64,000 nt of DNA from Bacteroidales bacterium. Lineage in GTDB: Bacteria > Bacteroidota > Bacteroidia > Bacteroidales > UBA932. Shown piece after piece: positions 640 through 6,603 of this stretch (position 1 is its first letter; the number at the start of each line of letters is the position of its first letter). The position numbers and the translations under genes are program-made. Location of the stretch: positions 50,692 to 114,691 of the forward strand of contig JAFPGC010000010.1 of assembly GCA_017423025.1 (NCBI GenBank). The letters run 5' to 3'. Below the pieces are notes generated by a model that saw only the letters and a program-made list of their open reading frames with translations, was not told where the DNA came from and did not search any database.

Positions 640-3600
640 ATGGCTCTAAGTTCTTGTAACACCGTCCTGGAGGCCTTTCGCCAGCAAGTGAAGGCTCATC
701 CCGAAAACACCGCGTTGGTTTACGAAAAGATCAAATTAAGCTATGCAGAGGTTGACCAATTAACGGATAATCTCGCCGCCTATATTGAATCCCAAGTGGC
801 GCCTAAAAGCGTCGTGGGCATCATGCTGGGCCGCAATGAATATATGATGCTGGCCCCTCTGGGTGCGCTTAAGGCCGGTTGCGCCTATCTTCCGCTGGAC
901 CCTTCCTATCCGGCTGAGCGTCTGGACTTTATGATGAAGGACGCCGATGCCAAGATGCTGGTGGCCGATGAAGAGCTCATTCCCATCCTGAAGGAGTACA
1001 AGGGACCGGTCATCAAGACCTCCGATATCCGGAAACTGCACCCCGGAACCCCCAAGGCGGAGCAGCCTGGACCGGAGGATCTTTTCATCCTCCTGTACAC
1101 CAGCGGCACCACCGGAACGCCCAAGGGCTGCATGCTCTGCCACAGAAACATCTTCGCCTACTGCAGCCACCACAGTGAGCTCATGGGCCTGGATCACACG
1201 TCCCACATTTCGGCGTACGCAAGCTTCGGCTTTGACGCTTTTGTGTCGGACCTCTACAGTTCCCTCGTCAGCGGCGGCACCCTTTACGTCATTCCGGAGC
1301 GCATCCGCCTCAACCTGCCCGCCCTGCACGACTTTTTTGAAGAAAACGGCATTACGTGCTGCTTCATGACCACCCAGGTGGCCACCCAGTTCGCCATCAA
1401 CTACCCGGACTGCAAGGGCCTCAAGACCATGTACACCGGTGGTGAAAAGATGTCCAGCTTCCAGCCGCCCCACTACCGCCTTTTCAACTGCTACGGTCCC
1501 ACGGAAACCATCTGCTACGTGGTCTACGAAGAGGTGAAGAAGCAGGAAGAGAACATCCCCATCGGCCGTCCCATGAAGGACATCAAGGTCTACATTGTCA
1601 AAGACGGCAAGCAGGTGCCCAAGGGAGAGCAGGGAGAACTCTGGATTACGGGTACCCAGGTGGGTCTGGGTTACCTCAACCGGCCGGACAAAACGGCCGA
1701 AGCCTTTGTGGACAACCCCTTTGACGACGACCCCAAATATGGCCGCGCCTACCGTACAGGAGACATTGTCCGCGAGCGCGAGGACGGAAAGATTGAATTT
1801 GTGGGCCGAAAAGACGGCCAGGTCAAGATCCGCGGCTTCCGCATCGAACTCAAGGAAGTGGAGGCCATTATTCGCGAATTCCCTGATATCAAGGATGTTA
1901 CGGTGCAGGCATTTAACGAGCCCGGCGTAGGCGCCGGCAAATTCCTGGCGGCGTACATCGTAAGCCCCAAGGAAATCAACGTCCAGGAACTGGACGAGTT
2001 CATAGCCAGCAAGAAGCCACCGTACATGGTGCCGGCCGTTACCATGCAGATAGACGCCATTCCTCTCAACGTGAACCAGAAGGTGGACGTGAAGGCCCTG
2101 CCCAAGCCGGAACCGCAGGAACGCAAGCAGGAGGCTCATGTAGCCCCGCTCAACGTGCTGGAAGAGGAAATCAGCGCCATTATCAAGGAGAGCGTGGGCA
2201 TCGGCGGCTTCGGCCTTACCGAGCCCCTCTACTACAGCGGCCTGTCCTCGCTGGGCGCCCTTCGCCTGGCCACCGAGCTCTATAAACGATACGGCCTGGA
2301 GCCGGACATGAACAGCTTTGCCAAGACCGCAAGCCTGCAAAGCATTGAAAACGACGTGCTTAACATCCTCCTCTCCAAGGAAAAGAGCCAGGAAGCCGCT
2401 CCGGAAAGCACGGAGGACGAACCCCAGGAACTCACCTTCCAGCAAACGGGTCTGTACCTGGATTGCGTCAAGAATCCTTCCTCCACCGCATACAACCTGC
2501 CGTTCATCCTCACCTTCCCCGAAGGCACGCAGGTATCGGCCCTTAAAAAGGCCCTGCTGGACATTCTGGAGGCCCATCCCGGCGTAACCGGAAGGCTGGA
2601 ACAGCGGGACGGCAAAGTGTATCTGGTGCCTGGAAAACCGGATTCGGAAATCCCGTCCGTCAAGCTCCGCAACGAGGAAGACTACGAGGCCCTGAAAGAG
2701 GCCTTCATGCAGCCCTACGACCTGTCGGGGCCGCTCTACCGGCTTAATATTGTGCAGACGCCCGGAAAATTGCGCCTCCTGGCCGATTTCCACCACCTCA
2801 TCTTCGACGGCCATTCCTACGACGTCTTCCTGGCCCAGCTGACGGCGGCCCTGGAAGGCAAGGAGCCCGAAAAGGAGGACTATACCTACTTCCGCTACGC
2901 CAAGGACCAGAAAGCCTATCAGGACAGCGCGGAATACCAGGAAGCCGAAGCCTTCTTTGCCAACCAGATGGCCGGAAAGGAGGAAGAAACCGGAGTCATT
3001 CCGGACAAGAAGCCCCAGGAAGACGAAGTGGGCCACGAGGTCTGGATCCGCAAAAAGATCGGGGCCGATGTCATGGCGCGCTGCCATGCGCTGGGCATCT
3101 CTCCGGCCAGCTATTTCCTGGGCGCCGCCTTCGTGACCGTGAGCGCCTTCAGCGGGAAACAGAAGGTCTTCATGAGCACCGTGGCCAACGGCCGCAGCGA
3201 CATGCGCTGCGCCAACACCTTCGGCATGTTCGTGAACACCATGGCCCTCTCCGGCGAAGTGGGAGAACAGAAGGCCGATGATTTCCTGAAGGAAACCGAC
3301 CGCAATTTTGCCACCACGCTCTCTTACCAGAACTATCCCTTCGCCCGCGTGGCATCGGCCTACGACTTCCATCCGGCCGTGATGCTGGCCTATCAGGTAG
3401 GACTGGTAGAGAAGTATACCATTAACGGACAAGCACTTGAAGATGAACTGCTTACACAGGACACGCCCAAGTTCCCGCTGAGCATCTTCATCGAAGGCAC
3501 GGAAGAAGCTCCCGAACTGGCCCTGGCCTATGACGACAGCCAGTATTCGGCGCCCCTGGTCCAGTCTTTCGCCGACGCCATGGAATGCGTGGTGAGGGGT

Positions 3601-6600: not shown

Positions 6601-6603
6601 TAA
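640..6603 (+). CDS. Dimodular NRPS, A-T-C-A-T-thioester reductase
   Basis: This 1987-residue synthetase should activate two amino acids, join them, and release the dipeptide reductively as an aldehyde. Order: A1 (about 10-500, LLYTSGTTGTPKG near 151); carrier T1 (about 515-590, phosphopantetheine Ser537 in GLSSLG); condensation (about 605-1030, active HHLIFDG at 718-724); A2 (about 1045-1530, LLYTSGSTGTPKG near 1165); T2 (Ser1546 in LGGSS); NAD(P)H reductase (about 1620-1987, TGATGFLG, catalytic Tyr1784 and Lys1788 in YVHSK). Hand alignment to GrsA gives specificity codes DASFYGCCYK (A1) and DAMFSGGIFK (A2); I cannot assign substrates. The same domain order is known from staphylococcal AusA, whose dipeptide aldehyde cyclises to pyrazinones, and similar reductase-ended synthetases occur in gut bacteria. 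No phosphopantetheinyl transferase, transporter or tailoring enzyme sits beside it. Confidence 0.93.
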   Translation: MALSSCNTVLEAFRQQVKAHPENTALVYEKIKLSYAEVDQLTDNLAAYIESQVAPKSVVGIMLGRNEYMMLAPLGALKAGCAYLPLDPSYPAERLDFMMKDADAKMLVADEELIPILKEYKGPVIKTSDIRKLHPGTPKAEQPGPEDLFILLYTSGTTGTPKGCMLCHRNIFAYCSHHSELMGLDHTSHISAYASFGFDAFVSDLYSSLVSGGTLYVIPERIRLNLPALHDFFEENGITCCFMTTQVATQFAINYPDCKGLKTMYTGGEKMSSFQPPHYRLFNCYGPTETICYVVYEEVKKQEENIPIGRPMKDIKVYIVKDGKQVPKGEQGELWITGTQVGLGYLNRPDKTAEAFVDNPFDDDPKYGRAYRTGDIVREREDGKIEFVGRKDGQVKIRGFRIELKEVEAIIREFPDIKDVTVQAFNEPGVGAGKFLAAYIVSPKEINVQELDEFIASKKPPYMVPAVTMQIDAIPLNVNQKVDVKALPKPEPQERKQEAHVAPLNVLEEEISAIIKESVGIGGFGLTEPLYYSGLSSLGALRLATELYKRYGLEPDMNSFAKTASLQSIENDVLNILLSKEKSQEAAPESTEDEPQELTFQQTGLYLDCVKNPSSTAYNLPFILTFPEGTQVSALKKALLDILEAHPGVTGRLEQRDGKVYLVPGKPDSEIPSVKLRNEEDYEALKEAFMQPYDLSGPLYRLNIVQTPGKLRLLADFHHLIFDGHSYDVFLAQLTAALEGKEPEKEDYTYFRYAKDQKAYQDSAEYQEAEAFFANQMAGKEEETGVIPDKKPQEDEVGHEVWIRKKIGADVMARCHALGISPASYFLGAAFVTVSAFSGKQKVFMSTVANGRSDMRCANTFGMFVNTMALSGEVGEQKADDFLKETDRNFATTLSYQNYPFARVASAYDFHPAVMLAYQVGLVEKYTINGQALEDELLTQDTPKFPLSIFIEGTEEAPELALAYDDSQYSAPLVQSFADAMECVVRGLLKNVPLTEIPFVDGERLKELDGFNNYAQEVDLSQTVVDLFRKQAKATPDAPAVLFEGKTISYKELDAYTDALAAKILSYGLKEEEVVAVLINRNAWMTKASLAAMKTGCAYQPLDPSYPPERLNFMIQDSHAKLLIADKELLPLVGEYKGPVLTTDQLDNLPEGKVTVGPKPESLYILLYTSGSTGTPKGCMLEHRNLVNFCAWYRDYYQLKPGDKVAAFASYGFDANMMDQYPALTSGACVCIIPEDVRHDLGALDRFLIDNGVTHSFMTTQVGVMYARNFPDNPVLKHLSVGGEKLISMPPPSYAFYNGYGPTECTIFSSIFHVLEREDNIPIGHPLSNVLLYVSDRNMRRLPVGAAGELLIGGLGVGRGYLNNPEKTAECFVDNPYSPGTRLYHSGDIVRFRPDGNIEFVGRKDRQVKIRGFRIELKEVEGVLQEFPGVKDVTVQAFDAPSGGKFLAAYVVADGTFDSKAAADFIRERKPPYMVPAAWMQLDAIPLNVNQKVDRKALPEATPSISDEYIAPVGETEKALCTIFAEILGVEKVGATDSFFDLGGSSLMVTNVMVSAEKQGLHFAYSDVFSHPSARALAAFLKGDEGVQDQDRNITDYDYSAIDALLKENSLESFLKGEPMRLGRNILLTGATGFLGIHVLKELLESTGPDTTIWCLLRAKGTLTPERRLKEMLVYYFEKDYRSLFGTRIRPVPGDITQPETLEPLKDIDMVFNCAANVKHFSKGTDIEDINYGGVKNLVALCEKNGAYLVHVSTESVGGLTPGNIPDTLTEQMLFFGQLTDNQYVHSKFLAERHILEHMVHGTLKAKILRAGNLSPRAEDGEFQVNLNANASMGRLKALKMLGASPYEMLEGQMEFSPIDQSAHAMVLLAQTPLENCVFNVSNNHIIPMDDIFTRLEKIDGQPLEYVEMAEFARRVEEANANPAKARIMAPLVAYQQSAAETQGVETLASTVFTMQVLHRLGFRWDHTSREYLDLTFEMLRTLQYFG

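Follow-up and report, generated by a model that had tools for sequence, protein, structure and literature searches.

We analysed a window of 64,000 nucleotides from an uncultured Bacteroidales genome of the UBA932 lineage (contig JAFPGC010000010.1, positions 50,692 to 114,691, forward strand), in which the gene at 640–6603 encodes a six-domain nonribosomal peptide synthetase (NRPS) ordered adenylation, carrier, condensation, adenylation, carrier, thioester reductase (A1-T1-C-A2-T2-R). We propose that this enzyme is probably a dipeptide-aldehyde synthetase under the control of a phosphorylation switch encoded beside it, and that it is paired with a sister synthetase, the two releasing their dipeptide with a free and a capped N-terminus, respectively. 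To AusA-like chemistry the system adds a switch-linked island, a sister enzyme and evidence of module exchange, with chemistry and control predicted from sequence. Handles beginning with L, G and C denote loci, genomes and contigs; G000 is the genome of the window. The synthetase gene is laid out as follows:

640–6603, plus strand: six-domain NRPS gene, A1-T1-C-A2-T2-R, a single intact open reading frame (ORF) of 1987 amino acids (Pfam and paralogue alignment)
661–2106, plus strand: A1 domain, pocket code DASFYGCCYK (Pfam, paralogue alignment, code extraction)
2155–2379, plus strand: T1 carrier, Ser537 within a GLSSL motif (motif, paralogue alignment)
2425–3633, plus strand: C domain, HHLIFDG at residues 718–724 (Pfam, alignment)
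3694–5133, plus strand: A2 domain, pocket code DAMFSGGIFK (Pfam, alignment)
5149–5388, plus strand: T2 carrier, Ser1546 (Pfam, alignment)
5482–6600, plus strand: thioester reductase (R) domain, GATGFLG from residue 1630, Thr1754, Tyr1784 and Lys1788 (Pfam, solved-structure alignment)

The initial annotation had read this order in one gene and had named carrier serines 537 and 1546, HHLIFDG at 718–724 and the reductase pair Tyr1784/Lys1788; Pfam and the paralogue alignment bear out the order, and every position is exact, the condensation HH being residues 718–719 and residue 717 a phenylalanine. On the 1987-residue protein, Pfam placed AMP-binding (two stretches), Condensation (597–991), a single PP-binding stretch (1519–1581, T2) and NAD_binding_4 (1628–1866); T1 had no passing stretch of its own but aligns to the T1 of the paralogue. 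The carrier serines and the reductase Tyr/Lys, which the annotation expected to align with active homologues, do so: all 35 aligned sequences share S537, S1546, H718, D723, G724, T1754, Y1784 and K1788, in a set that takes in the window gene and its paralogue and excludes partial, frame-broken and duplicate loci. In alignments, the Tyr and Lys also coincide with those of the AusA reductase structures (4f6c/4f6l) and of 6vtj ('Non-ribosomal peptide synthetase'), presumably a protein from a rumen methanogen, the reductase matching 6vtj at 228 bits versus 97 bits for AusA. Over the shared domains, dN/dS lay between 0.058 and 0.139 in all 12 pairs (ten six-domain, two seven-domain), and this ratio of about 0.1 indicates that purifying selection is acting on the synthetase genes. 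The length, which had been called compact, is normal for the six-domain family (1987 to 2023 codons in 24 aligned members, relatives measured stop to stop) and short only against AusA.

AusA, the aureusimine/phevalin synthetase of Staphylococcus aureus, has the same domain order and the same kind of active residues as the window enzyme. According to the accessible part of PMC12153313, it is a 277-kDa A1-T1-C-A2-T2-R protein that is modified by the phosphopantetheinyl transferase (PPTase) AusB, and its R domain yields an aldehyde. In AusA-type synthetases A1 takes Val and A2 takes Tyr or Phe; the window enzyme carries the codes DASFYGCCYK and DAMFSGGIFK in these two domains. Because the domain order is AusA-like and the carrier, condensation and reductase residues are intact, the window enzyme is best read as releasing a dipeptide reductively. 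The annotated AusA architecture thus stands for domain order and active residues, but not for the family model: AusA is the best NCBIfam match, yet the window protein reaches 970.3 bits and the paralogue 1013.1 against a curated cut-off of 2500 for the AusA equivalog NF047350, which rules out a true AusA orthologue. The match begins at model position 410, with 409 positions before it, the AusA model having about 400 extra N-terminal positions. Switch genes adjoin the window gene, whereas none are mentioned for AusA in the accessible part of PMC12153313, and ausA has, by the same source, a partner PPTase gene, ausB. The absence of a PPTase gene noted by the annotation holds for the immediate neighbourhood of the window gene; the genome has one PPTase match elsewhere (contig C9, the synthetase being on C85). 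Among 61 sampled genomes of the genus, the close NRPS family is present in 12 (11 by a reductase of at least 58% identity, G005 by a gene cut at the contig end), and G018, G067 and G072 have a distant reductase only (44–47%). At least one PPTase match occurs in 57 of the 61, comprising 12/12 carriers and 45/49 others.

Gut dipeptide-aldehyde and pyrazinone synthetases were reportedly the subject of Guo et al. in 2017. Ruminopeptin is presented, in the portion of PMC12327764 at hand, as a dipeptide aldehyde type made by NRPSs in gut anaerobes, and it is in this description that the likeness to the window enzyme lies. Unlike those systems, the window enzyme belongs to an uncultured Bacteroidales genus, and forms with and without an N-terminal C domain share one genome bin and stand in tandem in relatives. 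In the proposed mechanism, A1 and A2 would each activate an amino acid for loading onto the carriers T1 and T2, the C domain would join the two, and the R domain, with NAD(P)H, would release the dipeptide as an aldehyde, whose free amine may let it cyclise to a dihydropyrazinone or pyrazinone.

The window gene had been described as sitting alone. This was not confirmed: a divergent PP2C-HATPase gene and a STAS gene adjoin it, and contig C57 of the same binned genome carries a seven-domain sister synthetase (C0-A-T-C-A-T-R, 2413 amino acids) that is 63% identical to the window protein over the shared part. The HHxxxDG motif of C0 is kept in 9 of 10 aligned seven-domain sequences, the exception being L013, in which C0 is truncated. 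The A-domain codes of the window and sister enzymes are near-identical; across 34 aligned six- and seven-domain enzymes the A2 code is DAMFSGGIFK in 33 and DAMFSGAIFK in one, and the A1 codes differ chiefly at positions 239 and 299, with GCCYK kept in 33 (positions set by what we take to be PheA numbering). With its intact C0 motif, the sister enzyme would most likely make the same dipeptide with a capped N-terminus, blocking cyclisation. Comparison of C0 with the PDB for the acylating starter type gave weak, general C-domain matches only. We also considered C0 as the counterpart of the extra N-terminus of AusA and found no support, the sister protein matching the AusA model from residue 402 at model position 380. 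In L019, L023, L025 and L033 a seven-domain gene begins at most 20 bp after the end of a six-domain gene on the same strand; cut or frame-broken among these tandem genes are the six-domain gene of L019, the seven-domain genes of L023 and L025, and the six-domain frame of L025.

Two relatives, L010 and L048 (L049 being apparently the same gene as L010), are chimeras in which A1-T1-C is closer to the seven-domain type and A2-T2-R to the six-domain type. Their C domain is 75–79% identical to the seven-domain type versus 49–50% to the six-domain type, while A2 (84% versus 72%) and R (76–77% versus 65–66%) favour the six-domain type. A tree of the first half groups the chimeras with seven-domain enzymes (support 1.00), and a tree of the second half joins them to L060, a six-domain enzyme (1.00), within the group of six-domain enzymes (0.96). 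For both chimeras, diagnostic sites bracket the changeover at residues 1394–1419 of the sister protein, where the C domain ends. Since the chimera is present in two separate metagenome-assembled genomes (MAGs), assembly error is unlikely.

The switch genes and the control region between them and the synthetase comprise the following:

1–530, minus strand: divergent sensor (PDC/Cache)-SpoIIE PP2C-HATPase_c_2 gene, start only, cut by the window edge (Pfam)
L005:8411–10522: the whole switch gene, 703 amino acids, extending outside the window
L005:8112–8414: STAS gene, 100 amino acids, overlapping the 3' end of the switch gene, outside the window
561–576: dyad of TTTTGAG and CTCAAAA around AA, between the divergent genes (pattern scan)
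611–638, plus strand: TAAATTTG box and leader before the synthetase, nearly the same before the paralogue

A PP2C phosphatase, a HATPase kinase and a STAS protein, the components of partner switching, are thus encoded together. They share with RsbU/RsbW/RsbV (SpoIIE/SpoIIAB/SpoIIAA) the PP2C, HATPase_c_2 and STAS domains and the conserved STAS serine, and differ in that phosphatase and kinase are fused into a single sensor protein. The serine before [SA]G, which we take to be the phosphorylatable site of partner switching, is kept in 13 of 13 aligned STAS proteins (of 41 hits). Upstream of the synthetase, the TAAATTTG box is presumably of the Bacteroidetes -7 type consensus, and the dyad TTTTGAGAACTCAAAA at 561–576 matches TTTTGASNNSTCAAAA perfectly, as no other site of the 2.39 Mb genome does. 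Allowing at most one mismatch, the genome has three sites: one upstream of the window gene, one upstream of the sister gene, and one (L116:167–216, contig C50 of G000, one mismatch) some 35 bp ahead of an HtpG-like ORF, presumably HtpG; this last site may be a chance occurrence. Within the window, the pattern has one match at up to one mismatch, and at least one appeared in 4 of 100 shuffles; taken by itself, the dyad of the window carries little weight. A 15-base form was found in 12 of 115 loci, most of them chosen for their NRPS, and always between switch gene and NRPS. Symmetry is not general among relatives: the L048 core is changed yet symmetric, L010 and L049 are nearly symmetric, and L031 and L033 each lose a pair. 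The similar promoter and dyad, with the divergent sensor-phosphatase-kinase and STAS genes, suggest that both synthetase genes are probably under one control through partner switching.

Scanning contigs for two peptide words of the reductase yielded 54 loci. Forty-four (L019–L062) are 60–92% identical and come from MAGs of uncultured Bacteroidales/Bacteroidia, many of whose titles name rumen, omasum, reindeer, deer, buffalo or yak; the named relatives of the genus are largely rumen MAGs. Among the 30 of these with the NRPS start and at least 1 kb of DNA before it, 23 have a divergent switch gene of at least 50% identity 62–197 bp from the NRPS start, with STAS adjoining in 22 (in the exception, L024, the DNA ends inside the switch gene). 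At that same identity, a line chosen after the list was seen, a switch orthologue is present in 8 of 12 NRPS carriers and in 0 of 49 other genomes of the genus (Fisher 1.7e-7, uncorrected for kinship). It is adjacent to the NRPS in six of the eight and on a different contig in G023 and G071.

Several observations weigh against common switch control of the two synthetases. Seven of the 30 loci have no adjacent switch orthologue: none was found upstream in L034, L041, L044, L047, L056 and L057, and L058 has a different SpoIIE gene there; L041 has a STAS gene directly behind its NRPS. Four of the 12 carriers (G003, G019, G062, G079) have no orthologue at 50% or above, G003 having a 44% identical copy behind its NRPS, and a SpoIIE-type match of some kind reaches 1e-40 in 37 of the 61 genomes. 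Many carriers have no dyad element; the perfect dyad occurs in three of the 61 genomes, at the NRPS in G000 and G061, that is in only 2 of 12 carriers, and in the non-carrier G021. The reversed control pattern likewise yields one genome site at one mismatch. Finally, 219 bp separate the start of the sister gene from the end of its contig, and the MAG is 87% complete with 4.8% contamination, so that its membership in the genome of the window is not certain.

A less likely explanation, though one of some weight, is an ordinary AusA-type pyrazinone synthetase whose neighbouring switch genes are unrelated hitchhikers at a shared insertion site, which would fit the domain order and AusA as best NCBIfam match. 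Switch genes and synthetase sit between ybeY and hflX, with no tailoring gene seen in between. Of eight genomes with hflX at least 91% identical, the NRPS precedes hflX in two (G000 and G061). In five (L077, L079–L082), which count in favour of the switch-controlled reading, ybeY and hflX abut with 15–78 bp between alignments, the relative orientation differing in L077. In the eighth, G005, neither ybeY nor the NRPS was found within 1.5 kb before hflX, and the switch gene lies between ybeY and NRPS. Three of the five genomes with abutting genes (G003, G019, G062) carry the synthetase elsewhere; in more distant genomes ybeY is mostly about 0.8–1 kb from hflX. Co-occurrence is mostly at one chromosomal site and could reflect joint inheritance, but G023 and G071 hold both on separate contigs, and the same gene kinds stand near reductase-ended NRPSs in Clostridiaceae/Bacillota, Methanobrevibacter and Muribaculaceae MAGs and in a distant cluster of the same genus.

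That wider pattern comes from the other ten loci of the scan (L063–L072, 42–45% identity: three Methanobrevibacter, one Methanosphaera, four Clostridiaceae/Bacillota, a Bacteroidaceae MAG and a Muribaculaceae MAG). A MATE, PP2C, HATPase or STAS gene lies near the NRPS in 9 of the 10, and none was detected near it in L071; MATE adjoins the NRPS in 8, with a HATPase domain in 7 and the eighth cut by the contig. L064, L065, L069 and L072 themselves supplied queries for this neighbour search, and Pfam agrees for these four. The distant same-genus cluster, L120 from G072 (reductase 47% identical, switch gene 48% over its second half), carries on one strand sensor-PP2C-HATPase, STAS, MATE-HATPase, an NRPS with three A domains and a reductase, an ORF without assignment and a PPTase gene. 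MATE exporters with a C-terminal HATPase_c_2 of anti-sigma kinase type lie directly beside the reductase-ended NRPS on Methanobrevibacter, Bacillota and Bacteroidales contigs:

L064:10402–12117
L065:10440–12209
L069:10420–12171
L120:6745–8505

For M. ruminantium, the accessible part of PMC2812497 describes serine phosphatases, an anti-sigma kinase and anti-sigma antagonists in the vicinity of NRPS or NRPS-associated genes and proposes a role in sensing and regulation; the theme is thus already known there, and misbinning alone is unlikely for the archaeal contigs. Those clusters have MatE exporters, whereas the window island has the fused sensor-PP2C-HATPase and STAS with no MatE seen. For the Bacteroidales locus we found no description in the literature searched; 5,346 NRPS clusters in 8,160 rumen genomes (PMC8241843) may include such loci unnamed, and the words aureusimine, reductase and pyrazinone do not occur in the accessible part of that paper.

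Archaea are not known to have bacterial sigma factors, and the homologous switch genes near reductase-ended NRPSs in Methanobrevibacter, where, as in Clostridia, the HATPase is fused to MATE, raise the rather unlikely possibility that the switch acts without a sigma factor, PP2C, HATPase and STAS working directly on synthetase or export and gating aldehyde output after translation. If so, a cross-domain system controlling reactive peptides would have its minimal, fused version in the Bacteroidales island, whose two outputs would be the uncapped and the capped synthetase.

As to the product, some R domains perform four-electron release, and it is conceivable, if improbable, that the reductase continues to the alcohol or that another enzyme traps the aldehyde, leaving neither aldehyde nor pyrazinone as end product. 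MxaA, a distant match of the reductase, would agree with this, but 6vtj and AusA are nearer solved relatives, the AusA R domain gives an aldehyde (PMC12153313, accessible part), and we saw no gene for a tailoring enzyme in the interval from ybeY to hflX. Decay of the synthetase, which the broken frames of five relatives might suggest, can be dismissed given the intact 1987-codon frame, the conserved active residues and the dN/dS values in all 12 pairs.

Further observations concern neighbouring and related genes. The NRPS copies of L025, L028, L036, L037 and L057 are frame-broken in their MAGs. In L050 (3203–10465) the NRPS frame continues without a stop into the hflX frame over 2421 codons, a fusion or an assembly error, and G000 has a further NRPS-like gene on contig C46 (L073:2125–4569; A-T and a C-terminal part without assignment, 814 amino acids). 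TonB-plug, DUF4249 and MG2 genes follow hflX in the window (7853–13605), and relatives of them follow hflX in L035 (11658–17432) in reversed orientation. The annotation had placed the synthetase in a region shared with proteases; there is one S8 peptidase gene about 8 kb away (14514–17129, with S8_N and a Por secretion tail), the probable source of that remark, and a Pfam scan of 10 other proteins in the window gave no hint of a link.

Our reading of a switch-controlled synthetase pair would connect gut enzymes that produce reactive peptide aldehydes with a defined phosphorylation switch, genes of the same kinds lying close to related enzymes of three phyla. The chimeras, with their junction where the C domain ends, mark a place of natural NRPS module swapping. 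The uncapped and capped pair predicts two forms of one aldehyde, and the link to a switch makes when and why gut microbes make peptide aldehydes a testable question.

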